From positions 1 to 64,000 of IMG/VR virus record IMGVR_UViG_3300020433_000002: 64,000 nt of DNA, one strand, 5' to 3'. Below are positions 2,513 through 24,188 of the stretch, one piece after another (within the stretch, counting starts at the first letter, position 1; each line of letters opens with the position of its first letter). The position numbers and the translations under genes were made by a program. The notes under the pieces were generated by a model that was given only the letters and a program-made list of their open reading frames with translations, was not told the origin of the DNA and searched no databases. The stretch comes from a virus.

Positions 2513-2741
2513 AGAACAACACGAAGATCGCACATCTTGGAGAAAAGAATACTTAGGAATGAAGGTCGTATCCAAGAGACAAAGAGAACTCTTGGAAGAA
2601 GGGCCTCATTCTCTTAGTCAGAGTTGGTTACTTATGGCAATGCACAATGATTATAAAAAGATGAAGGGGATCAAGGAACCTCCCTATCGAGAGTCTGGAT
2701 ACCAAATAAGTATGAAGGAGTGGTTCAAAACCTATGAGTGA
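2505..2741 (+). CDS. Hypothetical protein, 78 aa
   Basis: A 78-residue basic protein starting [19 protein letters not shown] and ending WFKTYE, with no recognisable catalytic motif or membrane segment. It overlaps the 46-aa gene upstream by 8 bases, and its stop overlaps the gcvP start, so it probably belongs to the same polycistronic unit. No function is proposed. Confidence 0.65.
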
Positions 2742-5475: not shown

Positions 5476-6008
5476 GATTAGCAGTCTTATGTTCTGGTAA
5501 CGGAACTAACTTTGAAAACATTTTGAGGTCTTGTTGGGAAGACGAAGTTGTTATTATGATCCACAACAAAAAAAATTGTGGTGCTGTTAAGAGAGCAAAC
5601 AAATTTGGTATCCCACATTGTTTTATTGAACATGAGGATGAAGACCTAATGATTATGACTCTTAAAGCAATGGATGTTGATCTTATTATACTCGCAGGGT
5701 ATATGAGAATCCTATCTAAGAAATTTGTAGATTCTTTTGATAAGATCATAAATGTTCATCCCTCATTACTACCAAAGTATAAAGGGTTAAATACAGTACA
5801 ACGAGCCTTAGATGCAGGGGATACTGTTGTAGGGTGTACCGTACACTACGTAACAGAAGAACTTGACTCTGGTGATATAATATACCAAGGGCTAGTTGAT
5901 GTTGAACCCAATGATACTGTTAAAACTTTAACAAAAAAAATTCAACGACAAGAATACTCAATTTTACCTGAGGCAATTAGACTAATTAAAAACCATGCAA
6001 ATACCTGA
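5472..6008 (+). CDS. purN: Phosphoribosylglycinamide formyltransferase (GART)
   Basis: A 178-residue PurN that transfers a formyl group from 10-formyl-THF to GAR in step three of purine synthesis. The N-terminal SGNGTN loop binds the nucleotide phosphate. The catalytic triad corresponding to E. coli N106/H108/D144 is seen at N94, H96 ([13 protein letters not shown]) and D132 (EELDSGD), with identical spacing. It is slightly shorter than typical PurN (about 200 residues). Translation is coupled to gcvP through an ATGA overlap and it overlaps the next gene by 14 bases. Purine-pathway genes are common in cyanophages; pairing with gcvP is the unusual part. Confidence 0.95.
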
Positions 6009-7412: not shown

Positions 7413-7733
7413 ATGGAAATTTTATCTTCTCCTCAAGCATATGTTTTTAATTTACACACAACAAGTTCGGCAGAAGCAAAAAGAATATGGAGGAGAAAGA
7501 TAAAAGAAAGGTGGAATTGGGAATGTGCCTATTGTGGTTCTGATGAGAACATTACAATAGACCACGTAACTCCACGCTGTAAAGGTGGCCAAGATACCAT
7601 AGGAAATATGGTGTCGTGCTGTAATAAATGTAATCAAAGTAAATCACATACTCTTTGGGAAGAATGGTATTTTTCTCAGGAGTTTTTTAGTTTAGAACGG
7701 TATGCAAAAATCAAGGAAATGCAACTTGGATAA
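7413..7733 (+). CDS. HNH endonuclease
   Basis: A 106-residue free-standing HNH nuclease with the ordered elements C38xxC41, the catalytic DH pair at D50-H51 (TIDHVTPRCKGG), N65, and C70xxC73-N. The two CxxC pairs form the zinc site and the histidine pair with a metal cleaves DNA. It sits alone between the metabolic cluster and the late structural genes. Small HNH genes in T4-like phages are often mobile or homing nucleases, but no intron or recognition site can be seen. TATAAT-like sequences around 7383-7393 lie upstream without a -35 box. Its stop overlaps the late promoter for the fibre genes. Confidence 0.85.
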   Translation: MEILSSPQAYVFNLHTTSSAEAKRIWRRKIKERWNWECAYCGSDENITIDHVTPRCKGGQDTIGNMVSCCNKCNQSKSHTLWEEWYFSQEFFSLERYAKIKEMQLG

Positions 7734-7736
7734 ATA
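7730..7736 (+). promoter_or_regulatory. T4-like late promoter
   Basis: ATAAATA (preceded by GG) lies 50 nt before the ATG at 7787, heading the large block of structural genes. Confidence 0.6.
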
Positions 7737-7786
7737 ACTGAAGGCAGTATATACTGTTCTTTTTCTGGTACATACCGATAATATAA

Positions 7787-10591
7787 ATGGCTACCCCTAT
7801 TAGGATCAAACGATCTGCGGTGCCTGGAAAGGCCCCGACAGCATCTGACTTGCAAGTTGGAGAATTAGCTCTTAATACCTATGATGCTGAACTCTACACT
7901 CTGAGGTCTAGGCCTGGGATAGGCACGAATGTTGTTAAGATCGGTGGAGCAGCAGTAAAGAACGTAATATATGTCAATAAAGATGGTGACGATACAAATA
8001 GTGGAGATACATTAGGAAGAGCAAAGGCAACAATTAAATCTGCAGTAGGAATTGCCTCAGAAGGAGATGTAATTAAAATTTCTGCGGGAGTATATGTAGA
8101 AAATAATCCACTTAAAGTAGCAAAGCAAGTTAGTCTTATTGGAGATAGTCTTAGAGAAGTAACAGTAGTACCTCAGAATGCTAATGAAGATCTATTCCAT
8201 GTAAATCCAGGTGTTTATATATCTGATATGTCCTTCACAGGGACAATGAATGCGGGAAAAGCAATAACAGCATTTGAACCAGACAACATAGAATATTTCG
8301 CTCAGTCAGCATATGTTCGTAACTGTACTAACTTTGTTACGAATAGTATTGGAATGAAGATAGATGGTAATAAGTCTTTAGGGCCATTTAAGAGTATGGT
8401 TACTGACTCCTTTACTCAATATAATTCTAATGGTATAGGAGTATCAATTACTAATGATGGATATGCACAGATAGTTTCAATGTTTACTATTAATAGTGAC
8501 GTTGGAATTTTTTGTGGTAGTGGTGGGCAGTGTGATGTAACAAACTCCAACTCTTCCTTTGGTAACTTTGGATTAATATCTGATGGAGTTGGTGCAAGAA
8601 AATATACAGGAATATTAACTGCTGCTACTACAGTAGATTCAGATACTTTTGAATTGGATCTGACTGTACCAGTACAGAGCATTAAGACTGCTGAATATAC
8701 TGGTGAAACAGGTATGATGACTGTGACTACTCATGTTCCTCATGGATTTGAAGTAGGGCAGGGAATAGATTTTAGGAATATGGGTTGGACTTGTTACTAT
8801 GGAGACTATTCACATATATTTGTAAGTGCTGATCCTGCAGCAATATTCAGTGGTGGAGATTACACACATCAATTTGTAGGTGCTACTTCAGGTGCAATCA
8901 ACATTAATAGTGGAGCATCAATCGGTAATCAATTAGATATTACTGATGCAATATACACTGCATCTACAGGTCTTTTAGAATTAACATCATCTGCTGCTCA
9001 TGGAATGAGTACAAATGATAACGTTGCTGTAGATATTCTTTCACTTAGTTTTACATGTTCTAGAGATAATTATCAATCAGTTCATACATATCCACGTTCT
9101 ACAGATCCTATTGCTGGAATCAATACAGCAGTTGTAGTGACTGGTGCTAGTACCTTTAATATTAATGTTGGATCTTCTCCTATTCATAATGATCAACCCA
9201 CAGATGCTACCTATAATCCTAATACTGGAGACATGGTACTGACCATTGGTGCTCATGATTTCACTGGTCAAACTACTTTGACTGCAGGTAGTGGTAGTAC
9301 ATATAATGGAGCTACTGGAGTTCTTACAATTAATACTACTAATCCATCACATGCTTTAGTGACTGGAGATTATGTTAGATTTGATCATGAGTCTTTAACA
9401 TTCTCATGTTCTAAAGATGATCATGCTACTAATCATGCATACCCAAGAGTAACAGATCCTACTTATAATCAGTGGTTACCTGTAACCAGAGTAGATGCAA
9501 ATACTTTTACATGTAATGTTGGTATTTCAACTGCAGGAGATTTTACTCATACATTTGTTTCAGCAGTCAGTCAGGGTATTAAGGTTGCAGAAAGTACTGT
9601 TGGTATTAAGACTGAGGGTATAGTATTTACATGTTCTAAAGATGATCATGCAACTAACCATCCATATCCTAGAGTTACTGATCCAGCATACTATAGACAG
9701 ATGGGTGTAGGTGCTACCACTGCAGATAGTATAACAATTAATGTTGGAGTATCTACTCTTGATGTATTCCCAAGTGGTGTAAATGGATATGTCTTTGAGG
9801 TGAATGAGGTTGTTGGTATTAATACTTTTGTAGTTCACGTTGGGCCTAATCGTTTCCCACATCAATATGTTTCAGGTGGAGCTGCACAGGTAGATGTTAT
9901 AAGACCATTCGATGGTCAAGTAGTTTACTTTGATGCTTTATATAATACTGTAGGTAAAATAAAAGTTGGATCTGCTGGAACTGGATATATAAGAGCACCC
10001 GAAATAACTATTGATCCTCCTTCTGAACCATGGGGTATAAAAGCCACTGCTGTTGCCTCAATAAAGAATGGTAAGGTTGATGAAATTGATATAGTTTCTA
10101 GTGGAAGAGGTTATACCTCAGTACCAAATATTGTTCTATCATCACCACAGTCAGGAATAAATACTGCAACAGCTACACTAGAACTAAAACCAACTTACTA
10201 CGCTATTACAAAATCAACTGAAATATCTGGTGGTATCTCCACTATAACTGTTTCGGACAATGTTCCTTTCGCAGTTGGAGTAGGAACTACAGTTCCATTC
10301 TATAAACAGAGTAGAATCTTAGCATCAAGTCATTCATTTGAATACATTGGAACTGGAGTTGATCCAGTTACCTCATTACCTTCTAAGGGTGCTGTTCCTA
10401 TACAGGACAATGAGGTTGAAGATGCGAATGGTGGATTGACTATATTTACAAGCACCGATCAGACAGGTAATTTCCGAATTGGTGATGGTGTTATTATTAA
10501 CCAACAAACTGGAACCATATCAGGAACCTTTTATTCAAAGAGTTTATTTTCAACGATGACACCATTTATACTAGCATTAGGAGGAGATTAA
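7787..10591 (+). CDS. Virion structural protein, beta-helix tail fibre
   Basis: A 934-residue protein. The N-terminus (IRIKRSAVPGKAPTASDLQ followed by VGELALN) resembles the N-terminal domain of phage receptor-binding proteins such as major tropism determinant. Residues about 60-290 show a right-handed beta-helix (pectate-lyase-like) pattern, for example GDVIKISAGVYVENNP. The middle carries repeated modules with C-S-K/R-D and YPR-TDP signatures (three copies), also present in the 24721 gene. Near 720-800 there are GxGY repeats (GSAGTGYIRAPEITI). Probably a fibre or baseplate-attached adhesin on the virion. It is the first gene after a late promoter; the next gene starts 4 nt downstream. Confidence 0.8.
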   Translation: MATPIRIKRSAVPGKAPTASDLQVGELALNTYDAELYTLRSRPGIGTNVVKIGGAAVKNVIYVNKDGDDTNSGDTLGRAKATIKSAVGIASEGDVIKISAGVYVENNPLKVAKQVSLIGDSLREVTVVPQNANEDLFHVNPGVYISDMSFTGTMNAGKAITAFEPDNIEYFAQSAYVRNCTNFVTNSIGMKIDGNKSLGPFKSMVTDSFTQYNSNGIGVSITNDGYAQIVSMFTINSDVGIFCGSGGQCDVTNSNSSFGNFGLISDGVGARKYTGILTAATTVDSDTFELDLTVPVQSIKTAEYTGETGMMTVTTHVPHGFEVGQGIDFRNMGWTCYYGDYSHIFVSADPAAIFSGGDYTHQFVGATSGAININSGASIGNQLDITDAIYTASTGLLELTSSAAHGMSTNDNVAVDILSLSFTCSRDNYQSVHTYPRSTDPIAGINTAVVVTGASTFNINVGSSPIHNDQPTDATYNPNTGDMVLTIGAHDFTGQTTLTAGSGSTYNGATGVLTINTTNPSHALVTGDYVRFDHESLTFSCSKDDHATNHAYPRVTDPTYNQWLPVTRVDANTFTCNVGISTAGDFTHTFVSAVSQGIKVAESTVGIKTEGIVFTCSKDDHATNHPYPRVTDPAYYRQMGVGATTADSITINVGVSTLDVFPSGVNGYVFEVNEVVGINTFVVHVGPNRFPHQYVSGGAAQVDVIRPFDGQVVYFDALYNTVGKIKVGSAGTGYIRAPEITIDPPSEPWGIKATAVASIKNGKVDEIDIVSSGRGYTSVPNIVLSSPQSGINTATATLELKPTYYAITKSTEISGGISTITVSDNVPFAVGVGTTVPFYKQSRILASSHSFEYIGTGVDPVTSLPSKGAVPIQDNEVEDANGGLTIFTSTDQTGNFRIGDGVIINQQTGTISGTFYSKSLFSTMTPFILALGGD

Positions 10592-10595
10592 GAAA

Positions 10596-10937
10596 ATGGC
10601 ATTAGCATTAAACGTCTTTCAAACAATACCATATGTTGTACCAACGTCGCAGGTTGGGATTTATACTGCACCCGTTGGGTATACTGGTGTTGTTTTGTTA
10701 GCACAAACAGCAAATATTGGATCTGAAACACATACAGTTTCCTTTTCTCATGAAAGATCTGTCGCTGGAACGGCAGTTACAACAGAAATTTTAAAAGACT
10801 TACCTATTGAAGCAAGCGATACTGCTAATCTTTTACCAGGTAAACTTGTTCTTGAGCAGGGTGATATTCTTAAAATCTCTGGAAGCAATGCAACTGATCT
10901 TAAATTTTTAGGAAGCATATTAGAGACACTTAACTAA
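10596..10937 (+). CDS. Small virion structural protein, 113 aa
   Basis: A beta-rich 113-residue protein (starts MALALNVFQTIPYVV) with strongly alternating hydrophobic and polar residues and no membrane segment. It lies four bases after the large fibre gene and one base before the next, in the same late operon. Similar short proteins occur between fibre genes in cyanomyoviruses. The specific role is unknown; a fibre accessory or joint protein is an inference from position. Confidence 0.65.
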   Translation: MALALNVFQTIPYVVPTSQVGIYTAPVGYTGVVLLAQTANIGSETHTVSFSHERSVAGTAVTTEILKDLPIEASDTANLLPGKLVLEQGDILKISGSNATDLKFLGSILETLN

Positions 10938-10938
10938 A

Positions 10939-13572
10939 ATGGCCATAAAATACGTTAGCGGTAAGACTAAAGAACTTAAAGTTGGTTTGTCCAGTTATAG
11001 TGAGGGTAAACCATCCTTACAAGTTACTGGAAACGTTGGTGTGGGAACTACCAACCCACTTAAGAAGGCTAATCCTGCTAATACTTCAGTTGTTAGTTCT
11101 GGTATTGTAACTGCATATCAGATCTATGCTCAGATATACTCAGGTTCTGATGCTGGAACTGGTAATGGAACTTTTGATCGCCAAGCTAACATAGCGATAG
11201 GTGATACATTTACTGGAAATACGGGAATAGTTAGTGATTATAAGTATGCAAACATAAGCATTGGTAATTGTGCAGGTAAATCTATATTTGGTGGTGCTCA
11301 GAAGAATGTTTTAATAGGAGAGAATGCAGGTGCTGGTATTTTAGATGGTTCTAAAAACGTCGTAATTGGTGATAATGCATTAGGTAAATCTGGTATTAGT
11401 GGGGATGAAAACTTCGCAGTCGGTGATACTGCAGGTTACAATTTGACCTCAGGCTCTCACAATATTATGTTTGGTGATCAGGCTGGTGGTTTCACTTCCA
11501 CTGGTGGATGTAATGTCATGATCGGCCGAAGAGCTGGAATGGGTAATCAGACTGGAAATAATAATATTGTACTTGGAAATCTTGCAGGGTATAATAATGG
11601 AGATGGTAGTGATAATATTTTCCTAGGTACTTGTGCGATGGGTGCTTGCCTCAATCCATCGAATACTTTAGTTATTGGACACTATAACCACCAGTGGATA
11701 CACGGAGATTCAAATTATAGTATTGGTATTGGTATTACAAATCCTTCAGTCGCATCTGTTGCTATAGGAAATACACAGAAGTTAGCTGCTGGTATTGTTA
11801 CTGCTTATACTATTTTTTCTGATCAGTTAAATGTAACTGGTATCGCTACAATTAATACTTTAGATAGTTTAAATATATCTGGTGTCTCAACCTTTGCTGG
11901 TATATCTACTTTTTATAATAAGGTATATTTTGAAGATGATGTTTTTGTAGGAGCAGGTGGGACAGTTGGATTTGGAACTACTGCTTACTTTGGTTATAAC
12001 AATGATTTTAAAATCTATGATGATACTGCCATAGGGCAATCTTCTAAAATTCATACAAGAAATTCACTTCAATTCAAATCTACTGCACCAAGTGGTTTTG
12101 TTGGAATAAAAAGTGAAGTTACCCTTACATTTGGTATGGGTACTACATTTTGGGAAACAGACCTATTTTATTTGCAAACAACTTCTGGTCAGTTAATTGA
12201 AGCTGATGCTCGTGCTGGTGGGTTTGTAAAACTTAAGTATGGTAATTCGACAAAATTAACTACTAGAGATTATGGTATTGATGTAACAGGACATGTTGAG
12301 ACTGACACCTTAAATGTTACTGGTATCTCTACCTTCAATGATGATGTAGAGTTTATTGGTAATGCTGCTGGTATTACATCTGCTTTCTGGGATAAGTCTG
12401 CTAATGAATTAAAGTTTTATGATGGTTCAAAAGCATCATTTGGTGATGGCCAAGATTTACAAATCTATCATAGTGGTAGCCATTCTTTCATAGATGATAC
12501 TGGAACTGGTAATTTAAAACTTAGATCAAATAATTTAAGATTATCTAATGCAGATGAATCTAAATTATTTGCAGCATTCCAAGCAGGAGCTGTTGAATTA
12601 TACCATGAGAATGCAGAACGACTTAGAACTACTGGAATAGGAATTTCTGTTGTTGGTGTTGGTAGTACAGCATACATTGAAGGCCCAGATAATATAATAA
12701 TAGATCCACATCCATATGGTATTGGTGCTACTAGTGGTAACGTTTTCATTAGAGGTGATTTATATGTAGAAGGTACAGAATTTATTGTTGATGTAGATAA
12801 GATAGAACTTGGTGATTTCCAAATTGGTATTGCAACAACTGCAGGTACTAATGCACTTCTTGATGGTGCAGGTATTGGTATTGGTTCTACTAATATTAGA
12901 AAGTTTATTACTTGGAATAATGCAACCAATGCATTGATGACTAGTGAGAACTGGAACCTAGCATCAGGAAAACACTATGAGATTAATGGTACTGATGTAC
13001 TAACTTCTGATACATTACTGGTTGGAACGGGAGCATCAGTTCATTCACCTTCAAATAATATATTAACTCTTCATACGAATGGAGCTGAGAAACTTCGTAT
13101 AGATGCATCAGGTAATCTAGGTATTGGAACTGCTGTACCAACAGACTCTGCTAATGCAGCAAATTCATCAGTAACTTCTGCGGGTATTGTTACTGCACTT
13201 GAATACTACGGTATATTTAAAGGATCTATCCCTGGCTTCTCAACTGTATTCTCATCATCATCAGGATCATTTAGTGCAACTCCTGGTGTTCCTTATACTA
13301 TAGATACTTTTGCATTCTCAACTCATGATTATCAAATTGCAGAATACACTTTACACTTTGTACATGCTAATGGAATACAAGCACAGAAAGCATTAGTTAT
13401 GCAGGATAATTCTGTTGCATATTCAAATGAGTATGGAGTCATGTATGATTCTGAATTACTTGTTTCTATTGGTGCAACAGTTGTAGGTGGTAATGTTAAC
13501 ATCACTGCTACACCTGAAACTGGTATCAGTGGAGTGACTACATTTAGATGGAGAAGGGAGGTTCAAACCTAA
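10939..13572 (+). CDS. Tail-fibre-like protein with 17-residue solenoid repeats
   Basis: An 877-residue structural protein. After an N-terminal attachment region with a VGIGTTNP motif, about nine repeats of roughly 17 residues of the form N-(V/I)-x-(I/L)-G-x-x-A-G follow (around residues 105-245), resembling the head region of YadA-like trimeric adhesins. The array closes with a QWIHGDSNYSIGIG cap. The centre has VTGISTF/VTGIATI segments and the C-terminus ends GISGVTTFRWRREVQT, typical of phage fibre ends. It overlaps the protease-containing gene by one base (TAATG). Probably a trimeric host-contact fibre. Confidence 0.8.
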   Translation: MAIKYVSGKTKELKVGLSSYSEGKPSLQVTGNVGVGTTNPLKKANPANTSVVSSGIVTAYQIYAQIYSGSDAGTGNGTFDRQANIAIGDTFTGNTGIVSDYKYANISIGNCAGKSIFGGAQKNVLIGENAGAGILDGSKNVVIGDNALGKSGISGDENFAVGDTAGYNLTSGSHNIMFGDQAGGFTSTGGCNVMIGRRAGMGNQTGNNNIVLGNLAGYNNGDGSDNIFLGTCAMGACLNPSNTLVIGHYNHQWIHGDSNYSIGIGITNPSVASVAIGNTQKLAAGIVTAYTIFSDQLNVTGIATINTLDSLNISGVSTFAGISTFYNKVYFEDDVFVGAGGTVGFGTTAYFGYNNDFKIYDDTAIGQSSKIHTRNSLQFKSTAPSGFVGIKSEVTLTFGMGTTFWETDLFYLQTTSGQLIEADARAGGFVKLKYGNSTKLTTRDYGIDVTGHVETDTLNVTGISTFNDDVEFIGNAAGITSAFWDKSANELKFYDGSKASFGDGQDLQIYHSGSHSFIDDTGTGNLKLRSNNLRLSNADESKLFAAFQAGAVELYHENAERLRTTGIGISVVGVGSTAYIEGPDNIIIDPHPYGIGATSGNVFIRGDLYVEGTEFIVDVDKIELGDFQIGIATTAGTNALLDGAGIGIGSTNIRKFITWNNATNALMTSENWNLASGKHYEINGTDVLTSDTLLVGTGASVHSPSNNILTLHTNGAEKLRIDASGNLGIGTAVPTDSANAANSSVTSAGIVTALEYYGIFKGSIPGFSTVFSSSSGSFSATPGVPYTIDTFAFSTHDYQIAEYTLHFVHANGIQAQKALVMQDNSVAYSNEYGVMYDSELLVSIGATVVGGNVNITATPETGISGVTTFRWRREVQT

Positions 13573-16550
13573 TGACTGAAGAAGAATATAATCAGCGAAA
13601 AGCGGCCTTTGAAACACATAAAAACACATTAGAAAAAGAACCATCAGGATCAGATGTAAAGAAAGAATATTGGGTAGGATGTTATTCAAAAGATGATTGG
13701 GAAATAATACATTCACTGCTTCTTGAGGATGGTACTCTAGAAGATAACATTCCTAATGATCATGTAGATTGTCCTAATGATTGTCGTCAAAGTGAGACTA
13801 GAGCTGTATATCTATTAACAGATACAGAAGTAGCTGCACTTAAAAATCATGAACTAGTAAGATACGTACATATTAATACTGCAAAATATCCAGGAACATA
13901 TGCATCAAATCCTGATGATATTAAAATGGATGGTAGAACTTTTAGATATTCTTCTACAACAAAACATAAAAGAGATACCTCTACTAATCAGTCAGATTAT
14001 TTACCAAGTTCACCAGATGCTACATTACTCAATAGAGGATGTTATAATTTATTAAGACATACAGAAAAGAAAGATCCTTGGAGAGCAGGATTGTCTTCTT
14101 CATTCACATCTGCTGGAACTTATAGTTGGACTGCTCCTGCAGGAATAGCAACTGTAAGTGTTGTTTGTGTTGGAGGTGGTGGTGCTGGTGATGGTACAGG
14201 TTGGAGTTCTGGTGGTGCAGGTGGAGGATTAGCTTGGAAAAATAATATTTCTGTAACACCTGGCCAATCTTATGTGGTTCAAGTTGGGTCTGGAGGTACT
14301 AGAGGTGGAGCAGCTCCTGATGGTGCAAATGGTGGAACATCATTTTTCATTAGTACTTCTATAGTTGCAGCAAGTGGAGGTTACGGACATTATAATTCAA
14401 CACCTCAGAATCCACCAGGTGGAGAAATGTTAGCTGGAGATGGTGGTGGAAGTGGTGGTCTAGGAGGATATTATAGTGGTAGTTATGCAGGATATTATGG
14501 TGGTGGCGGTGGAGCTGGTGGATATGCTGGTACTGGTGGAAATGGTGGTACCAATGTTCCAACACATCCTATTCAAGTAAGTGCTGGTACTGGTGGTGCA
14601 GGTGGTGGCGGCTGGGCCGTTCAAAGTGCTGTTGAATCCTCTTCTGGTACTGGTGGAGGAGTAGGAATATATGGTCAAGGAGTAAGTGGTGCTGCAGGTA
14701 CCAGTACTAGTAGTAGTACATGGGGTGGTCGTGGTGGATCTGGTGGAGAAGATGGTGGATCAACTGGTAGCGATGGTGCTGATTATGGAGCTGGAGCTGG
14801 CGGTGGTGGTAGTATTGGTGGCGGTGGTGCTGTGAGAATAGTTTGGGGAGAGGGCAGACAATTCCCATCACAAAATGTTCAGGAAGTAGTCTCTGATTCG
14901 ACTATACTTGATAGTAAGATCCCTCAATATGCAACAGGAAAAGGTATTGATTTAATTGTGTGTGATGAAGATATGTGGTTTGGACATATTGAATTTATGA
15001 ATCCAAGTGGTATAACAGATATTAAACAATCAGATAATTCAACTGCTGCGACCACTGCTGCACCAGCTAACTATGTTGGAACGAATGTTTTGAAGTCTGG
15101 TTTTGCTACTTCATCTACAACTGGAATATGTGAATTGTTAGATTTAGTTTTAGATGCTCCTTATTATATTGATAAGGAATGGTTTGAAGCAGATGCAGGA
15201 AATAGATTAATGACTCGTTGGGATGGAACAAAAGTTCCAGTTGAATCTGTTGCAAGATCTTGGTGGTCTAATTCATCAAATAGATCTGCTGCATTTTCAA
15301 GTGCAGGTACTGTATCAGTTCCTGCTGCATATACTAGAGCAAATAGTAATGGAAGTTATACTGCATATCATACTGGTTCTGGAAATCATGGAACTCCTTG
15401 TGCATCACAAGCATATGGAAGACAATATGGTTGGGCTTATAATGCAAACAAATGGTTCTTAAATCTTTATGGAACTAATAGTGTAGGACTTGAAGCAGGT
15501 TTTGATTTACAAAAAATATTTCATCAGAACAAACCAGTAAATCCAGAGTATGGAAATAAGAATCCAACTGTATCAAGTAACAGTTGGGGATTGAGACAAT
15601 CACCTACAACCTCTGGGTATTATTATTTCAGACAAGGTGTAACTGGAGGAACTGGAACAAGTTATAGTAGTCTTCCTGCATTTATGAATTATTTTACGGG
15701 TGATGGATTAAATAGAAGATCACCAGAATATGTTGATGGTCATGCAGCAATTACTGCTGGTGATGAGATGATAGAGGCAGGTGTTATCTTTGTATGTTCA
15801 TCTGGTAATAATAATCAGAAGCAAGTTCAAAGTAATCATGCAGATTTTAATAATTATTATGCATCAGGTTCAAGTGTAAACTATGCAAATGCAACAACTA
15901 ATAGCATATATTCATTAATGAATTTCACACCCACTTATAATAGTTTGAATCGACGAGGGTTTCCAGCACAGATAGGTGTTGATAGAAGCACTACTCCATA
16001 TACTTATAAAACAATATCTATTGGTGCTTTAGATGATGATCATACTGCTGAAGGATTAGAACGAAAGGCATCCTACAGTAACATGGGTAATAGTGTTGAT
16101 TGTTTTGCTGCTGCAGATCAAACACTATCTGCATCAGATGATAATTCCAGTCCAAGGTTCAATAGATATGATGCATACTATGATATTGGAACAACACAAG
16201 CTGTTGAATCAGAAGATAAAAACTTTAACGGAACTAGTTCTGCATGTCCTATAGCTGCAGGATTGATTGCTACTAAGTTAGAGAATAACAGAACTTGGAC
16301 ATATGCTGATGTTAAAAATTGGTTAGCATCTGATGTTGAGAATACGTCAGATGCATGGTTCTATAAAGGAACTGAAGCAACTACAGCAACTGATACTACT
16401 AATTGGGGTGATTATTATAATTTGCAGGGAGCACAATTGAAAATCATATATGATACACCACCACCAGTACCCTCATCAGAAGATTCGGATGCAAAAGTAT
16501 CAGTTACTGGTAGCAATATATCATTCGGTGGTAACTTCTCAATCATTTAA
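13572..16550 (+). CDS. Structural protein with embedded subtilisin-like (S8) protease domain
   Basis: A 992-residue protein with three parts. Residues 1-110 include RAVYLLTDTEVAALKNHELV and then RYVHIN, resembling a subtilase inhibitor/propeptide (I9-type). Residues about 200-425 are a Gly-rich domain (GGGGAG, GGGGSIGGGG). Residues about 455-960 are a subtilase fold with candidate catalytic Asp465 (LIVCDEDMW), His606 (GNHGTPCASQAYG), oxyanion Asn746 (CSSGNNN) and nucleophile Ser889 (FNGTSSACPIAAG). The order D-H-N-S is correct for family S8. The ATG at 13572 is preferred over an upstream in-frame ATG at 13548 because GGGAGG at 13556-13561 precedes it. Context suggests a virion fibre enzyme. 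Confidence 0.8.
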   Translation: MTEEEYNQRKAAFETHKNTLEKEPSGSDVKKEYWVGCYSKDDWEIIHSLLLEDGTLEDNIPNDHVDCPNDCRQSETRAVYLLTDTEVAALKNHELVRYVHINTAKYPGTYASNPDDIKMDGRTFRYSSTTKHKRDTSTNQSDYLPSSPDATLLNRGCYNLLRHTEKKDPWRAGLSSSFTSAGTYSWTAPAGIATVSVVCVGGGGAGDGTGWSSGGAGGGLAWKNNISVTPGQSYVVQVGSGGTRGGAAPDGANGGTSFFISTSIVAASGGYGHYNSTPQNPPGGEMLAGDGGGSGGLGGYYSGSYAGYYGGGGGAGGYAGTGGNGGTNVPTHPIQVSAGTGGAGGGGWAVQSAVESSSGTGGGVGIYGQGVSGAAGTSTSSSTWGGRGGSGGEDGGSTGSDGADYGAGAGGGGSIGGGGAVRIVWGEGRQFPSQNVQEVVSDSTILDSKIPQYATGKGIDLIVCDEDMWFGHIEFMNPSGITDIKQSDNSTAATTAAPANYVGTNVLKSGFATSSTTGICELLDLVLDAPYYIDKEWFEADAGNRLMTRWDGTKVPVESVARSWWSNSSNRSAAFSSAGTVSVPAAYTRANSNGSYTAYHTGSGNHGTPCASQAYGRQYGWAYNANKWFLNLYGTNSVGLEAGFDLQKIFHQNKPVNPEYGNKNPTVSSNSWGLRQSPTTSGYYYFRQGVTGGTGTSYSSLPAFMNYFTGDGLNRRSPEYVDGHAAITAGDEMIEAGVIFVCSSGNNNQKQVQSNHADFNNYYASGSSVNYANATTNSIYSLMNFTPTYNSLNRRGFPAQIGVDRSTTPYTYKTISIGALDDDHTAEGLERKASYSNMGNSVDCFAAADQTLSASDDNSSPRFNRYDAYYDIGTTQAVESEDKNFNGTSSACPIAAGLIATKLENNRTWTYADVKNWLASDVENTSDAWFYKGTEATTATDTTNWGDYYNLQGAQLKIIYDTPPPVPSSEDSDAKVSVTGSNISFGGNFSII

Positions 16551-16551
16551 C

Positions 16552-16558
16552 ATAAATA
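16552..16558 (+). promoter_or_regulatory. T4-like late promoter
   Basis: ATAAATA directly follows the preceding stop codon, 20 nt upstream of the ATG at 16579. Confidence 0.55.
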
Positions 16559-16578
16559 ACTAAACGGTAATAAATCCC

Positions 16579-18714
16579 ATGGCAGATAAAGCATTTGGTG
16601 TAAAACAACTGAATATAATTGGTAGTGGTACTCCAACTATTGAAAGTCCTGGTGACTTGAGTTTGAAGGCTGGTACCGTAGCAATTAGTACCAACTTATA
16701 TGTCGGTGGTATAACAACTCATATTGGATTAACAACAACTACAAATGATTTGTATGTAGGACTGGGTTATACTATTCACGGAAATGGTAGTCAGATATAT
16801 AAGGCACCATGGGGTCATGATGGTAAATCTAATTATCTTAGTGATTATCAGATAACAAATCCTGCAGTCGCAGCTTATGGTAGTTCAATAAGTGGTAATT
16901 GGAATGTTGTAGCAGGATATTTTGCAGCATGTTGTGGTACTACTATGGGCTACAACGTAATTTTTGGTGAGAGTGCTGGAAGAAAATTAACGAGTGGTAA
17001 TAGAAATATTTTACTTGGATCAAAAGCAGGTTGTCTTCTTGATGATGCTCAACAAAATGTTATTATAGGATCCTGTGCAGGAACTGAAGCAACAGGAAGT
17101 TATAATGTATCATTAGGAATGTGTTCTGGCCAATGTTTAACTGGTGACTTTAATATTGTATTAGGAAAGAGTGCGTCTGAAAATTTACAGGCTGGAGATA
17201 AAAATATTATACTTGGTTTTTATGCTGGTTCTGATGTTGGTGCTGCTGGTACAGACAATGTGTTTATAGGATCCTATGCTGGCCAGAGTCGTGGGTCAGG
17301 TGAAGCTAGTGTTGCTATCGGACAACGTACTTTATATAATTCATATGGTGGTTGCAACGTTGCAATTGGTAATGAAGCACATCTAGGTGAAGCAATGGGA
17401 GAAGGTTCTGAGAATATTTCAATAGGTTCTCAAGCTGGTTACGGAATTAATTCAGGAAATCATAATATATTTTTAGGAAAATGTTCTGGTGCAAAATCTG
17501 GTTCTGTATCCCATAATATTTTCATGGGTTGTGGTACAGGATGTTGTACTACTGCTGGTTCATATAATGTATATCTTGGCCATGAAACTGGTAAATGTAA
17601 TCAGGGTGGTGCTTGTAATGTTTACATTGGAAACAGAACAGGATTTGCTGCTACTGGTGGTGAACAAAACGTAGCCATTGGCCAAAGTGCAGGTTATAAC
17701 AACAATATTGGTTCATATAATATTTTCTTTGGTTCTAATGCTGGAACTAATAATGATAGTGCAAATAAAAATATAGCCATTGGCCAAAAAGCAGGGTTTT
17801 CTAATACCACGGGCCAATGTAATGTATTCATTGGTGCTTATGCTGGATGTAAATCAAACAGTGATGGTTCAAATAATTTATTAAATGTTGCTATTGGACA
17901 TTGTGCAGGATTTTGTAATGCTGGTAATCGTAATGTTACTATAGGTTGGAAATCAGGTTGGATGAGTGAGTCTGGTACAGACAATATTATCATTGGTTCT
18001 GAATCTGGTCACTGTATTAATAGTGGTAGTACCAATGTTTTGATTGGCCAAAAAGCAGGATTCTGCCAGACTAGTGCAAATAGTAATGTCTTTATTGGAT
18101 GTTGTGCGGGATATGATGCTCTTAGTGGAGGTGGTAACGTTGCTCTAGGTGGTGATGCACTGAAAGTAACTCATGGTAGTTATAATATTGGCCTTGGCTT
18201 TGCAGCTGGCGATGATATTACGAGTGGTAGTAGAAATGTAACTATTGGATGCAATGTTCAAGTGCCTAGTGCAACTGGTAGTGATCAATTAGCGATTGGT
18301 TCTGGTTCTAATACTTGGATCAATGGTGATAGTAATTTTGATGTAGGTATAGGAACCGCTACACCAACATCTAAGCTCCATGTGATTGGAGACTTTCTAC
18401 TAACAGGTATTGCAACTGCTATAGATTTTGATTCAACATCTGATATAAGATATAAGAAAAATATTCAAGCAATTGAAGATCCAATTTCTAAGGTTGTAAG
18501 GATTGAAGGTGTATCATTTAATTGGAAAGAAGATGATAGAGCTGCACTTGGTGTTATTGCTGACCAAGTTGAAACAGTACTACCAGAACTTGTTCGTGGT
18601 ACTGATCCAAAGACAGTTAATTATAATGGTTTGATTGGATTATTAATTGAGGCGGTAAAGGAACAGCAAATTCAGATAGATAAACTGAACGAAAGAATTT
18701 CTAAATTAGAGTGA
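16579..18714 (+). CDS. Solenoid-repeat fibre protein with S74 intramolecular chaperone
   Basis: A 711-residue protein. Residues about 130-590 are an almost continuous array of roughly 26 repeats of about 17 residues (N-V/I-x-I/L-G-x-x-A/C-G). The array closes with a QLAIGSGSNTWINGDSNF cap and a VGIGTATPTSKLHV linker. The C-terminal 95 residues are a peptidase S74/endosialidase-type chaperone domain starting TSDIRYKKNI, with the expected self-cleavage Ser at S621 and Lys at K626, ending in a coiled coil (QQIQIDKLNERISKLE). Such domains trimerise the fibre and then cleave themselves off. Many repeats carry Cys. It has its own late promoter. Confidence 0.85.
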   Translation: MADKAFGVKQLNIIGSGTPTIESPGDLSLKAGTVAISTNLYVGGITTHIGLTTTTNDLYVGLGYTIHGNGSQIYKAPWGHDGKSNYLSDYQITNPAVAAYGSSISGNWNVVAGYFAACCGTTMGYNVIFGESAGRKLTSGNRNILLGSKAGCLLDDAQQNVIIGSCAGTEATGSYNVSLGMCSGQCLTGDFNIVLGKSASENLQAGDKNIILGFYAGSDVGAAGTDNVFIGSYAGQSRGSGEASVAIGQRTLYNSYGGCNVAIGNEAHLGEAMGEGSENISIGSQAGYGINSGNHNIFLGKCSGAKSGSVSHNIFMGCGTGCCTTAGSYNVYLGHETGKCNQGGACNVYIGNRTGFAATGGEQNVAIGQSAGYNNNIGSYNIFFGSNAGTNNDSANKNIAIGQKAGFSNTTGQCNVFIGAYAGCKSNSDGSNNLLNVAIGHCAGFCNAGNRNVTIGWKSGWMSESGTDNIIIGSESGHCINSGSTNVLIGQKAGFCQTSANSNVFIGCCAGYDALSGGGNVALGGDALKVTHGSYNIGLGFAAGDDITSGSRNVTIGCNVQVPSATGSDQLAIGSGSNTWINGDSNFDVGIGTATPTSKLHVIGDFLLTGIATAIDFDSTSDIRYKKNIQAIEDPISKVVRIEGVSFNWKEDDRAALGVIADQVETVLPELVRGTDPKTVNYNGLIGLLIEAVKEQQIQIDKLNERISKLE

Positions 18715-18718
18715 TTGT

Positions 18719-18725
18719 CTAAATA
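18719..18725 (+). promoter_or_regulatory. T4-like late promoter variant
   Basis: CTAAATA lies 39 nt upstream of the ATG at 18765, the same variant seen before 38244 and 56205. Confidence 0.4.
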
Positions 18726-18764
18726 TTAATAACAAATACTACCCAGTGTATACGAGGACGGTAG

Positions 18765-21700
18765 ATGGCCATTAAGTTATCGGGTTCTACTATTATAGAT
18801 GATAGTAGGCAGATTATAAATGCGGGTAATGTCGGAATAGGAACGACAGACCCTACAGCAAAAGTAACAGCATCTAATACTGCAGTAGTGGCTGCTGGTG
18901 TTGGTACTTTTCATAAAGTATACGGTGATGGTAGTGAGTTAATCAATATTGGTTTAGGTGGTACAGATACTTGGAATCAAGATGCACAAGGTAACTTAGT
19001 TGCTGGTGTAGGTGCTGGTGTAGCGAGAGATAATGATACTTGTAGTAACCTTTTCATAGGATGTAAAGCTGGTGCTGCTGTAAATTCAGGAGATAGAAAT
19101 ATATTTCTTGGTTATTATGCAGCCAAAAATACATTTACATCAGGTAGTTGTAATATTGCTATTGGTGATGAAGCAGGAAAATGTGGTAACGGTAGTAATC
19201 AAGTCTTCTTAGGATCTGCTGCAGGATTCTGTATGAGTGGTAACGGTGGTGTTGCCATCGGTATGAATGCAGGTCGTCATAAGACTAGTGGTATAGCTAA
19301 CGTATTCATAGGTTGTTATGCTGGTTCATGTGGTGGTACTGATGGATGTACTACTATTGTTGGTGCTTTAGCAGGTAAATGTAGTGAAGGTGGTTGCAAT
19401 GCAATCTTTGGTGCTAGAGCAGGATTTAATAATGCATCAGGAGATTTTAATACATTTCTTGGCTTTGATGCAGCTTGTTCTTCTACTTCTGGTTCAAATA
19501 ATGTTGCTATTGGTAAGGCAGTTCAACTTCCTTCACTAACTGGTGATACACAATTAGCAATTGGTGCTGGTGCTACCACTTGGATTACTGGTAATGATAC
19601 TTTTAAGGTAGGTATAGGAACTACAACTTATACAGCTTCATTAAATGTTCATAAAGATATTGGTGGTTACCAAGTTTTAAGTGCAGAAGGTGAAGGATCC
19701 ACTACGCTTACAGTTATAACAATTGATAAAACTGCAAAGCACAGATATCCTAGTGGTGGAGGTTCTAGTACTAAAGGATATGAAATAGATGGTGCTGAAG
19801 CACCATACCTAACTCTAACACCAGGTAGAACATATAGATTTGAACAGTCTGATAGTAGTAATGATAATCATCCTTTAATATTTTATCTTACAGCTGATAA
19901 GAATACAGAATACACACAAGGTGTAAGTTATTATGCTGATGGTGCACGAACAAACTCTACAGATTTTAGTTCCAATTATAATTCAGCATCAGTTAGATAT
20001 ACAGAAATTACAGTAAGTGATGAGACACCTTTGGTGCTTCACTACCAGTGCTATAACCATGGTTACATGGGAAATGCTATTAGTTTCCCTAATAATGTTC
20101 TCAATACAAACTATCAATCAACCATTAGAGCAGACCTTCATGTTACTGGTATTGCTACTTTTGGTAGTGCATCACTTAAGTTAGATGGTAGTAATAATAT
20201 TATTAATGTTGGAGCAGCATTAACTCTTGGACATTCACAAGGTATTCAATATCATACTCAAAATTTACATGCTACTGGTTTCGAAGTTAATCAAATTAAT
20301 GCTTCAGGTATTACAACATTCACTGATCTAAAAGTTGGAACTGGTGCAACAATAGAATCGAATGGTAATGCAACTCTAGGTATTGTAACAGCAAAATCAT
20401 TCCATGGTAGTGGTGCAGGATTAACTGGTATCACAGCAGAATTTGATCCTGATGCACAAGAGAACTTATATGCTGGTACTGATGCTGGTAAATGTTCTGG
20501 TTCTGATAATTGTTATAATGTTGCTATTGGATATCATGCTGGTTGTAAGATAGGAAATAGTTCTTCTCAGGGTGATGATAACGTTTTCTTAGGTAGAGAA
20601 GCAGGTGTAAACGTTGATGCAGGTATAGCTAATATCCACATAGGTTACTTTGCAGGATGTCAGAATCAAAGTGGCCATAATAATGTGGCAGTTGGTAAGC
20701 AATCACTTAGATCACTCGCAACAGGCAATAATAACGTAGCACTTGGTAATCAGGCAGGATGTCTGTCTCAGGCTCAAGGCAATACCTTCTTGGGATCTTA
20801 TGCTGGTAGAAATTTAGTCTCTGGATGTTGTAATATTGTTATTGGTTGTGGAGCTCAAGTTCCACTTCCAAATGAAGATAAGCAATTAGCAATTGGTATT
20901 GCTGATAATAATTGGATCTACGGTAATGCTAACTGGAATGTTGGTATTGGAACAAATGATCCAGATGCTCCTGTTGGTGCTGGAGTTACTGCTAAGTTAT
21001 CGGTTGGTATTGTATCTGCCTTTGCTTACTATGGTGATGGTTCTAATTTAACTGGTCTTGTTGCTAGTGGACAAGGTATTCAAATTAGAGATAATGATTC
21101 TTTGATTGGTACTGCTGGAACAATAAACTTTTCTACAAACTTATCTGTCTCTGCTATTTCTGGTGCTGCTGTTACTATAACCAGTCAAGGATTATGGACT
21201 GCAGACGTACAAGAAAATTTATTTGCAGGAACTTGTGCAGGATATAATAGAGACGCAGATACCTGTTTCAATATTGGTATAGGTCAAAGTGCAGGTTACG
21301 CATTAAATGAAGGTGATGAGAATATCTTTATAGGTAGATGTTCAGGTACAAAAGCAACCGCAGCTAGCAATAATGTTTTCTTAGGATCACTCACTGGTGA
21401 ATGGGGTTTCATTGGTGAAGATAACGTTTATGCAGGAACTGCTGCTGGTAGATGTAAACAGGGTGGTAGTGAAAACGTTGCACTAGGCCCATTTGCATTA
21501 CTAGGTTCTTCAATACCAGGTCAGAACCAAGGTAATAGTAATATTGCTATTGGAATGAGAGCAGGTGCACTAGCACAAAATGGTAGTTGTAATGTTTTGA
21601 TAGGTAGAGATGCAGGTATCTGCATAGCCAATGGAAATGAGAACGTTGCAATCGGCCGTTCAGCAATGGGTAGTCAGGCTATTTCCAGTGATCATAATAT

Positions 21701-23624
21701 TGCAATTGGTTGTTTGGCTGGTATTAACATTACTAGCGGTAATAATAATATATTCTTGGGAAGACAGTCGGGTGGTCAAAATTCTGGTGGACTTACTCTT
21801 ACTGGTTCTTATAACGTAGCACTTGGTCGTGAAGCAGGATGTAACTTACAAGGTAGTACTGATGGTAACGTTTTTGTAGGAGGTTATGCAGGTAAGGTAA
21901 ACAGCACTGGTGATTTTAATATTGCACTTGGTTATAATGCGGGAAGTAATCATAGTACGGGTAATAAAAATATATCAATTGGATGTAACGTACATGTACC
22001 TCAGGATGCAGATACACAATTAGCAATTGGTATGGGTGCCACTCATTGGCTTACTGGTGATAATCAATTTAACTTAACTCTTGCTGGACTTTCAACTGCA
22101 AAAACTGATGGAACATTCCAAACTAACCAATTAATGGTAGGTGGTAACGTTGCTTCTGGTATTGCTACCTTTACTGGTTTATCGAATGTTCTGACTATTA
22201 ATTCTACATCATCAAATCCTGCAGCATTATTCCAACAGAGTGGTACTACCAAAGGAAGTATAGAAGCAAGATCTGATGGTATTAGATTACAAACCTCAGC
22301 TGATAACAGAACAATTATTGCAGCTAATACTAGTGGTGGTACTGCTGGTCTTGTAGAAGTTGAAACTTGGATAAATGGTTCAGGTAATTTAGTTAATAGT
22401 TTTGAAGTTACTGGTTTTGGTACTGTTACTGCTAAACATCAAGATAATGTAAGACTTAGAACTACTCTAGAGGGTATTGAACTTGCTGGTATAGTTACAG
22501 GTATTTCAACTATTAATTCAGGAATCGTAACTTACTATGGTGATGGTTCAAAACTACAAGGTGTTGCAGGTGGTCTTAATGTTCAGGATGAAGGTACTCC
22601 ATTAGCAACACAAGCAACCACTCTTAACTTTGAAGGTGCTGGTGTTGTTGCATCTGGTACTGGTGCAACTAAAACTATTACTATTTCTGGTGGTGGTGGA
22701 ACTGCTGCTTGGTCTCCTGATGATGATCAAAACTTATATGCTGGTACTAGAGCTGGTAGATGTTTAGATGGTACTAATGCTTGCTACAACGTCATGCTTG
22801 GTTGCAATGCTGGTCAAGCAACTGATTCTGGTGCTGAGAATATATTTGTAGGTAGGGGTGCAGGTTTTGGTAACGAAGGTGGTGATTATAATATTTTCCT
22901 AGGCTCTTATGCAGGTAAATGCAATACTACTGGCTATGGTAACGTATTGTTTGGTAAAGAAGTTGGATTCTGTTTAACTACAGGTATTCATAACTTCTAT
23001 GCACTAGAAAGAGCAGGTAGTAACGCTTATCAAGGTTGCGATAACATTGCAATAGGTAGGTGTGCTGGTTATGAAATGATGGCCAATGATAACATTCTCT
23101 TAGGCCGAAATGCTGGTAGAGGACAAGTCTTTGGTAGTCGAAACGTTATCATCGGTATGGATGCTGGTAGATGTGGTGACGCTGGTGATAATAATGTAAT
23201 GATTGGTTGCAATGCAGGTCGTTGTAACCAAGGAACAGGTAACGTATTCTTAGGCCATAATACTGGTTCTGCTGTTACTAGTGCTAGTGGTAACGTTGTT
23301 ATTGGTTGCAATGTATCACTTGCATCTTCTGTTCAGGATCATCAACTAGCAATTGGTGTTGGTAATACAAACTGGATCACTGGTATTGAGAACTACAACC
23401 TCGGTATCGGAAGTGATAGACCAAGAACTGCTCTTGATGTTGCTGGAACGGTAGCAACAAGAACGTTCTTCCAGAATGAAGTTGAATTGCGTACTAGTGA
23501 AACCTTCCCTAAAGAAGGTGGCCCAGTAAATGGAGGTGTATTTGGCCCATACACTATCGGAACTGGTGCTTGTCTTACTATTGGGCCTGGGTCTACATTT
23601 ACTATCATTGGAATACCTGAATAA
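18765..23624 (+). CDS. Giant solenoid-repeat fibre protein with cupredoxin-like domain
   Basis: A 1619-residue fibre protein composed of four similar cassettes. Each has an opener (D-x-Q-x-NL-x-AG...C), an array of about 17-residue N-V/I-x-I/L-G-x-x-A-G repeats, and a cap (QLAIG-x-G-x3-W-I-x-G). Openers start near nt 18970, 20445, 21195 and 22710; caps are near 19553, 20885, 22019 and 23345. Between cassettes 1 and 2 lies a cupredoxin-like domain (about residues 319-445) with H369, C429, H432 and M435 in the order of a type-1 copper site. Each inter-cassette linker has a fibre motif such as YGDGSNLTGL. Probably a long, possibly trimeric adhesin. Confidence 0.85.
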   Translation: MAIKLSGSTIIDDSRQIINAGNVGIGTTDPTAKVTASNTAVVAAGVGTFHKVYGDGSELINIGLGGTDTWNQDAQGNLVAGVGAGVARDNDTCSNLFIGCKAGAAVNSGDRNIFLGYYAAKNTFTSGSCNIAIGDEAGKCGNGSNQVFLGSAAGFCMSGNGGVAIGMNAGRHKTSGIANVFIGCYAGSCGGTDGCTTIVGALAGKCSEGGCNAIFGARAGFNNASGDFNTFLGFDAACSSTSGSNNVAIGKAVQLPSLTGDTQLAIGAGATTWITGNDTFKVGIGTTTYTASLNVHKDIGGYQVLSAEGEGSTTLTVITIDKTAKHRYPSGGGSSTKGYEIDGAEAPYLTLTPGRTYRFEQSDSSNDNHPLIFYLTADKNTEYTQGVSYYADGARTNSTDFSSNYNSASVRYTEITVSDETPLVLHYQCYNHGYMGNAISFPNNVLNTNYQSTIRADLHVTGIATFGSASLKLDGSNNIINVGAALTLGHSQGIQYHTQNLHATGFEVNQINASGITTFTDLKVGTGATIESNGNATLGIVTAKSFHGSGAGLTGITAEFDPDAQENLYAGTDAGKCSGSDNCYNVAIGYHAGCKIGNSSSQGDDNVFLGREAGVNVDAGIANIHIGYFAGCQNQSGHNNVAVGKQSLRSLATGNNNVALGNQAGCLSQAQGNTFLGSYAGRNLVSGCCNIVIGCGAQVPLPNEDKQLAIGIADNNWIYGNANWNVGIGTNDPDAPVGAGVTAKLSVGIVSAFAYYGDGSNLTGLVASGQGIQIRDNDSLIGTAGTINFSTNLSVSAISGAAVTITSQGLWTADVQENLFAGTCAGYNRDADTCFNIGIGQSAGYALNEGDENIFIGRCSGTKATAASNNVFLGSLTGEWGFIGEDNVYAGTAAGRCKQGGSENVALGPFALLGSSIPGQNQGNSNIAIGMRAGALAQNGSCNVLIGRDAGICIANGNENVAIGRSAMGSQAISSDHNIAIGCLAGINITSGNNNIFLGRQSGGQNSGGLTLTGSYNVALGREAGCNLQGSTDGNVFVGGYAGKVNSTGDFNIALGYNAGSNHSTGNKNISIGCNVHVPQDADTQLAIGMGATHWLTGDNQFNLTLAGLSTAKTDGTFQTNQLMVGGNVASGIATFTGLSNVLTINSTSSNPAALFQQSGTTKGSIEARSDGIRLQTSADNRTIIAANTSGGTAGLVEVETWINGSGNLVNSFEVTGFGTVTAKHQDNVRLRTTLEGIELAGIVTGISTINSGIVTYYGDGSKLQGVAGGLNVQDEGTPLATQATTLNFEGAGVVASGTGATKTITISGGGGTAAWSPDDDQNLYAGTRAGRCLDGTNACYNVMLGCNAGQATDSGAENIFVGRGAGFGNEGGDYNIFLGSYAGKCNTTGYGNVLFGKEVGFCLTTGIHNFYALERAGSNAYQGCDNIAIGRCAGYEMMANDNILLGRNAGRGQVFGSRNVIIGMDAGRCGDAGDNNVMIGCNAGRCNQGTGNVFLGHNTGSAVTSASGNVVIGCNVSLASSVQDHQLAIGVGNTNWITGIENYNLGIGSDRPRTALDVAGTVATRTFFQNEVELRTSETFPKEGGPVNGGVFGPYTIGTGACLTIGPGSTFTIIGIPE

Positions 23625-23627
23625 ATA
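23621..23627 (+). promoter_or_regulatory. T4-like late promoter
   Basis: ATAAATA overlaps the stop codon of the giant fibre gene, 21 nt before the ATG at 23649. Confidence 0.55.
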
Positions 23628-23648
23628 ATAAAACAATTGAAATAGATT

Positions 23649-24188
23649 ATGAGTACTTTAGTTCTTAAGGGAGACATCTCTGGGTTCACAAAATTGCAGG
23701 CCCAAGATCAAGCATCATGTAAGATATTGAAATTACCTAATACAGGTAGCTTTAAATGGGAAAGTTACGCAATAGTATTGGATAAAAAAAATTCTGGTAC
23801 TACTAGTGGTACTTTCACTAGAGGTTCTTGGGAAACAAGAGATTTGATTACAAAGACAGATATAGATAATATTATATCTCTCTCTAATAATCAATTTACA
23901 TTAGGTGCAGGTAGATATTTAATTAAATGGTCAGCACCTGTATATAATGTAGATGGTCATCAAACTAGATTAAGAAACATGAGTGACCTGACTACAGACA
24001 TTATTGGTTCTTCAGAATCTGATAACTCAAGATCTTTTGGTGCTGGTGTTGTAACTATTCTTGAAAATAAAACTTTTGAGATACAACACAGATCAGAAAC
24101 TACTGTAACTGATAATGGATTTGGTTTTAATTTAGATTTTGGTGAGGATAATATTTTCACCGTGGTTGAAGTATATAAAGAGTCGTGA
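23649..24188 (+). CDS. Fibre-tip protein with C1q/TNF-like fold (putative)
   Basis: A 179-residue beta-rich protein. The C-terminal 120 residues follow a pattern common at phage fibre tips: GAGRYLIKWSAPVYNVDGHQ, then a TRLRN loop, TFEIQHRSETT and IFTVVEVYKES. This resembles a jelly-roll (C1q-like) domain. It is preceded by an ATAAATA motif and lies between fibre genes, so a receptor-binding or fibre-decorating role is inferred. No enzymatic motif is seen. Confidence 0.65.
   Translation: MSTLVLKGDISGFTKLQAQDQASCKILKLPNTGSFKWESYAIVLDKKNSGTTSGTFTRGSWETRDLITKTDIDNIISLSNNQFTLGAGRYLIKWSAPVYNVDGHQTRLRNMSDLTTDIIGSSESDNSRSFGAGVVTILENKTFEIQHRSETTVTDNGFGFNLDFGEDNIFTVVEVYKES

Follow-up and report, generated by a model that had tools for sequence, protein, structure and literature searches.

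What does a subtilisin-like protease do among the tail-fibre genes of a cyanophage? The question is raised by a late gene in a stretch of 64,000 nucleotides (hereafter, the window), part of an 84.5-kb virus record in which psbA, gcvP, purN and a Nol-like carbamoyltransferase gene are present. In the window, psbA (98-1201) lies near a gcvP-like glycine dehydrogenase gene (2734-5475), followed by a purN-type formyltransferase gene (5472-6008); these are auxiliary metabolic genes. A megablast search with positions 7413-24188 returned a single 37-base match, which we judged to be due to chance. Since the database relatives of the protease all come either from T4-like cyanophages or from marine single-cell virus records, we assign the source to a T4-like cyanophage. 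Over residues 594-922 the protein matched Pfam PF00082 (Peptidase_S8) far above its cut-off (E=1.3e-12), and it matched PHROG 9158 with E=8.4e-85. Its homology over propeptide and S8 core and its fibre-cluster position (PHROG, alignment, synteny) place it in T4-GC292 / PHROG 9158, a known, unstudied cyanophage family; our literature searches found no functional study of cyanophage S8 proteins. What is new in the window protein is its insert (see below).

Counted from its first ATG, the open reading frame spans 13548..16550 and encodes 1000 aa; from the ATG at 13572 the product has 992 aa (P0001). We prefer the latter start, which is also that of the original prediction, because this ATG is part of a TAATG overlap, sharing one base with the upstream fibre gene's stop codon, and because GGGAGG (SD) lies ~10 nt 5' of it. 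No signal peptide was found in the first 60 residues, where the highest Kyte-Doolittle mean over 11 residues was 0.75. The features of the gene and its surroundings are collected in Table 1.

Table 1. Coordinates of the S8 protease gene, its predicted domains and residues, and the neighbouring features in the window.
Feature	Position	Strand	Basis or comment
Late-promoter core ATAAATA	7730..7736	+	Precedes block 7787-16550, which ends with the S8 gene
Upstream fibre gene (877 aa)	10939..13572	+	PHROG virion/tail matches; C-terminal ~100-aa domain recurs 5' of S8 genes
S8 (subtilisin-like) protease gene (992 aa)	13572..16550, stop included	+	Pfam, PHROG; start by SD and TAATG overlap
Charged N-terminal extension, helix at residues 3-17	13572..13652	+	AlphaFold2 model; no hydrophobic signal-peptide stretch
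I9-like inhibitory propeptide (predicted), residues 28-111	13653..13904	+	Foldseek; Pfam I9 in relatives; pLDDT ~90
Putative mature-enzyme N-terminal motif, residues 155-171, NRGCYNLLRHTEKKDPW	14034..14084	+	Alignment; counterpart of WGLxR in P-SSM2/S-CREM1 homologues
Glycine-rich insert, residues 179-440, divergent, modular	14106..14891	+	PF21722, PHROG 4474, comparison with L005
S8 catalytic domain, residues 441-961	14892..16454	+	Pfam, alignment, AlphaFold2, Foldseek
Catalytic Asp465 codon	14964..14966	+	Invariant, 100/100
Catalytic His606 codon	15387..15389	+	Invariant, 100/100
Oxyanion-hole Asn746 codon	15807..15809	+	Invariant, 100/100
Nucleophile Ser889 codon (GTSSACP)	16236..16238	+	Invariant, 98/98
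Late-promoter core	16552..16558	+	Directly 3' of the S8 stop; serves the next fibre gene
Downstream fibre gene (711 aa), C-terminal S74 endosialidase-type chaperone	16579..18714	+	PF13884, 7.8e-13

The window protein has the D-H-N-S order of family S8 (clan SB), that is, the triad and the oxyanion Asn. We aligned it with 99 relatives, taken from isolates and from IMG/VR (100 sequences in all). Asp465, His606 and Asn746 were identical in every sequence, and Ser889 in the 98 that reach that position, the other two ending before it at contig ends. The residue numbers given in the original prediction were correct, and all four residues are invariant wherever homologues extend to them. Pairwise identity over the core in these 100 sequences had a median of 0.45 and a minimum of 0.20; 18 of the 413 well-filled S8 columns were invariant, so that four positions named beforehand would all be invariant by chance with a probability of ~2.6e-6. 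Structure prediction, which had been proposed as a check, gave a confident proteinase-K-like core: AlphaFold2, run with a 52-sequence alignment, assigned residues 441-960 a pLDDT mostly of 85-98, and Foldseek matched the core to subtilases (best 1s2n, E=1.5e-10; 2b6n, TM 0.72 normalised by target), grouping it with cold-adapted and proteinase-K-like members. Together with PF00082 and PHROG 9158, these results bear out the S8 fold. A single-sequence PDB search gave chance BRD matches and no subtilase, but a profile search did recover subtilases.

The original prediction had left activity in doubt, as the window protein has CDED instead of the Asp motif D-[ST]-G. This motif is a common S8 signature and not a strict requirement. 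Across the 100 aligned sequences the residue at Asp +2 is G in 62, D in 14 and P in 8, and the P-SSM2 and S-SCSM1 homologues have the canonical DTG; with the Asp itself invariant and only the +2 position varying, the doubt is largely removed. The gene encodes a real S8 protease that is probably active. The departure from D-[ST]-G and the variability at +2 could also be taken to point to a catalytically dead S8 scaffold with a structural or binding use only, but pseudoproteases normally lose triad residues, and the invariance of D, H, N and S in all homologues reaching them makes a dead scaffold highly improbable.

The N-terminal domain was folded alone, and its best Foldseek match was unprocessed pro-subtilisin E. 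The propeptides of pro-subtilisin E and BPN' came on top, with pro-subtilisin propeptides at ranks 1, 2, 5, 6 and 12 (probability 0.82-0.97; E 0.03-0.28, none at or below 0.001), weak E-values that are expected because the domain has only 95 residues. A PDB profile search with this domain gave ten matches, four of them to subtilisin-type propeptides (E 0.38-1.5 for these four). The Pfam I9 family (PF05922) was detected in 15 of 57 relatives (best E=4.7e-4), and no other family in more than two; PF05922 had no match in the window protein, nor in the search of its own record. Given the Foldseek propeptide matches and the I9 matches in relatives, the view of this confidently modelled AlphaFold2 domain as a predicted I9-type propeptide with a ferredoxin-like fold holds, as the propeptide-like N-terminus noticed at the outset had suggested. 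Further along, we take residues 155-171 (NRGCYNLLRHTEKKDPW) to be the subtilase mature start; a WGLxR segment near the mature N-terminus is typical of subtilases. In members without the insert, the propeptide is followed by a short segment, W-G-L-x-R or N-R-x-x-[WY]-x-x-x-R, and then by the Asp strand.

A propeptide followed by an intact triad would also suit a structural part that processes only itself, cleaving its own propeptide in cis to lock a fibre part into its final shape and having no substrate but itself. The adjacent self-cleaving S74 chaperone shows that intramolecular cleavage is used in this cluster. However, an enzyme acting in trans would likewise be expected to keep every active-site residue, the oxyanion Asn among them, as strictly as is seen here, and we regard cis-only cleavage as rather improbable.

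The glycine-rich block lies after the mature-start motif and before the Asp strand; by this position it should therefore stay with the mature protease instead of being lost with the propeptide. It matched PHROG 4474 with E=3e-51, and PF21722 just below the cut-off (E=1.8e-4; 22.0 bits vs 24.3). The original prediction of a Gly-rich domain was right as to its presence (~179-440), but it is no standard domain of the family: only 2 of the 23 members examined first have it, the window protein and its relative at locus L005, and most of the family lack it. The block is an insert of the window protein and its nearest relative, outside the conserved design. Between these two, amino-acid identity is 55% in the block vs 92-93% in the flanking domains (propeptide, core), so that in this one genome pair the block has the gp38-type feature of a hypervariable segment between conserved flanks. 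The dN/dS ratios between the window and L005 were 0.27-0.61; as they were below 1 in every domain, they do not show positive selection. In the block both terms are high (dN 0.42, dS 0.78), which fits replacement or recombination, and the block behaves as a swappable module. In gp38-type adhesins a Gly-rich block folds as a poly-glycine II (PGII) sandwich; in the window protein, AlphaFold2 modelled most of residues 241-438 at a pLDDT of less than 50. A tblastn search with the block returned one weak match, probably owing to low-complexity masking, and we used phmmer over the collected loci instead. A Gly-rich module like that of the window was also seen on a separate gene 3' of S8 (L108:6897-9899, with several tandem copies, and L019:7902-8300). 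Gly-rich tip domains of T2-type gp38 bind receptors (PMC12892980), and the Gly-rich fibre domain of myocyanophage Pam3 gp24 has been proposed as receptor-binding (PMC9608196); by analogy, the block of the window protein may bind a receptor.

We then asked in what company the gene is expressed. The core of the cyanophage late-promoter consensus NATAAATA (PMC2984593) is depleted in the window (17 observed vs 34 expected), and 9 of its 15 forward copies lie 12-70 nt 5' of a gene start (p ~8e-10). Occurrences of ATAAATA at 7730, 16552, 23621, 24210, 24248, 24687, 42163, 52376 and 61841 provide a map of late transcription units. Because one core precedes 7787 and another follows the S8 stop, the protease gene is probably the last of the late block 7787-16550, with two fibre genes. 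The late-promoter cores, the TAATG and the fibre genes on both sides support the late fibre-cluster context and the overlap with the upstream gene that had been described. The fibre proteins encoded at 16579-18714 (711 aa) and 18765-23624 (1619 aa) have many NVFIGxxAG-type repeats, within which Cys residues are numerous (e.g. GKCS, GCCAG); a regular expression for the repeat, applied to neighbouring genes, was uninformative for distant relatives. The C-terminal ~100-aa domain of the upstream 877-aa protein (13258-13569) is found directly upstream of only 60 of 104 S8 genes and is rare elsewhere in the loci examined. Our searches gave it no PDB identity and a single PHROG match, of unknown function; it might, at a guess, be the point where the S8 protein is mounted. 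At L008 and L043, a further copy of the domain is encoded by the gene that follows an S8 gene.

Other members of the family carry extra modules at differing points of the protein. Cupredoxin-like domains lie after the His in L108 and, as the sequence suggests, between Asp and His in L007, and ~190 extra residues separate Asn and Ser in L066, L071 and L078. Ig domains are C-terminal in L033, L044 and S-TIM54, RCC1 repeats occur in L064, a Laminin-G lectin domain is fused to S8 in the S-SCSM1 homologue, and a carboxylesterase is placed between propeptide and S8 core in S-TIM54. Such variety suits a displayed, host-facing part. The S-TIM54 protein (L009:6995-13429) is a 2145-aa, virion-annotated chain of propeptide, carboxylesterase, S8 and Ig; at L106:3986-7159, an S8 fusion protein ends in an S74 endosialidase-type fibre chaperone; and L043, L045 and L047 have tandem pairs of S8 genes, with catalytic residues intact in both.

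With the window, P-SSM2 and S-RSM4 proteins as queries, we found S8 members in 43-47 phage records. Set against ~460 records named Synechococcus, Prochlorococcus or Cyanophage and having a T4-like terminase, this corresponds to carriage in ~10% of T4-like cyanophage records, ~90% being without a recognisable copy, although distant members may be missed. IMG/VR contained at least 571 relatives. Eight genome contigs also matched; we took these to be viral sequence that had been binned into marine MAGs, and they did not establish a cellular origin.

This distribution bears on one of the roles first suggested for the protease, fibre maturation, in which it would cut the upstream 877-aa or the downstream S74 protein during assembly and then stay in the particle or be lost. 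Such a role is possible: the gene sits between fibre genes in a shared late block, S8 genes often occur together with the upstream protein's C-terminal domain, and a zymogen design suits control during assembly. It is weakened, however, by the ~90% of records that do without a recognisable S8 gene, from which it follows that fibres in general do not need it, and fusions to lectin, Ig, RCC1 and S74 domains are more readily expected of a displayed part than of a soluble enzyme for processing. We thus consider fibre maturation unlikely, although it is the main rival of the reading that we favour (below). Being accessory, the gene is more readily explained by interaction with the host than by a part in fibre assembly in general.

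Evidence on the virion comes from a relative. Mass spectrometry of S-SCSM1 virions detected 45 proteins (PMC9602691), and by our own count 47 genes of the S-SCSM1 RefSeq record are marked "virion protein", so that the two numbers do not match exactly. The mark also appears on detected non-structural proteins (NMNAT, D-Ala-D-Ala carboxypeptidase), and several obvious structural genes do not have it; we read the mark as standing for detection by mass spectrometry. The S8 homologue of this phage, gp144, is marked "(virion protein)", and so are its neighbours, which is good but indirect evidence that gp144 is in the virion. The claim that the window gene encodes a tail structural protein therefore stands through relatives, namely the gp144 mark and the S8-S74 fusion of L106, and for the window protein itself it is an extrapolation. 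The same observations speak against a cytoplasmic protease that acts on host proteins after infection and lies near fibre genes by chance. Synthesis in the cytoplasm and the lack of a signal peptide would agree with such an enzyme, but the late promoter context, the S-SCSM1 tag, the fusions with fibre modules and the repeated fibre-cluster location across homologues do not, and we consider it very unlikely.

We favour, with a probability of about 0.5, a virion-carried zymogen S8 protease on the tail fibre or baseplate, acting at the host surface. Late in infection, along with the tail-fibre proteins, the host cytoplasm would produce an inactive zymogen of a complete subtilisin-type serine protease that has no signal peptide. 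Its I9-type propeptide would fold and then block the catalytic domain, and we infer that self-cleavage just before the NR..YNLLR segment would free the mature enzyme. The Gly-rich block would remain part of that enzyme and form a binding module that is exposed and changes rapidly. We would place the protein on the tail-fibre/baseplate apparatus, its likely seat being the upstream gene's product or a site close by. During adsorption it would cut a protein on the host surface, much as tailspike depolymerases attack surface sugars; this attachment point and this kind of target we likewise infer. For the S-layer in particular, originally named as an example of a target, we find no support: the family is found in phages of Prochlorococcus and several Synechococcus strains, and the sequence holds no pointer to a substrate. 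In its most specific form, the proposal would make the protein a proteolytic counterpart of the tailspike depolymerase, a fibre-mounted zymogen subtilisin on a contractile tail. An embedded Gly-rich receptor-binding module, exchanged rapidly, would direct it to a protein of the host surface, and other members of the family would have swapped in modules of other kinds (lectin, Ig, RCC1, cupredoxin-like or esterase). We advance this version tentatively, at somewhat less than even odds.

Surface-clearing phage enzymes are mostly known as sugar-cutting, and little is yet understood about the way in which cyanophages recognise and breach a host cell. A family that keeps an intact subtilisin in the tail-fibre cluster of phages infecting the most abundant marine phototrophs would open the removal of surface proteins to testing in cultured systems such as P-SSM2, S-SSM7 and S-SCSM1.

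Compared with known systems, the window protein is closest to the T4-GC292 / PHROG 9158 proteins (P-SSM2 PSSM2_297, S-SSM7 SSSM7_232, S-SCSM1 gp144, S-WAM2, S-H9-1), with which it shares the layout of propeptide and S8, the invariant residues and the place among fibre genes; unlike it, most of these lack the Gly-rich insert, several have DTG, and others have different modules. The catalytic fold, the residue order and the I9 propeptide are those of proteinase K / VPR / aqualysin-type subtilases (1s2n, 2b6n, 4dzt). These are secreted enzymes with signal peptides, whereas the window protein has no signal peptide, and has CDED and 260 inserted residues ahead of the Asp strand. Like the Gly-rich fibre-tip adhesins (T2/S16/PP01 gp38; Pam3 gp24), it has a divergent Gly-rich block, and its gene is directly 3' of a fibre gene, as is that of gp38 (PMC12892980, PMC9608196). 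In contrast to those adhesins, the block of the window protein is embedded in a protease; the likeness that we draw is one of composition, divergence and gene position. With tailspike depolymerases it would share the idea of a tail-displayed enzyme acting at the host surface; those enzymes cut polysaccharides and have beta-helix folds, whereas the window enzyme is a predicted peptidase.
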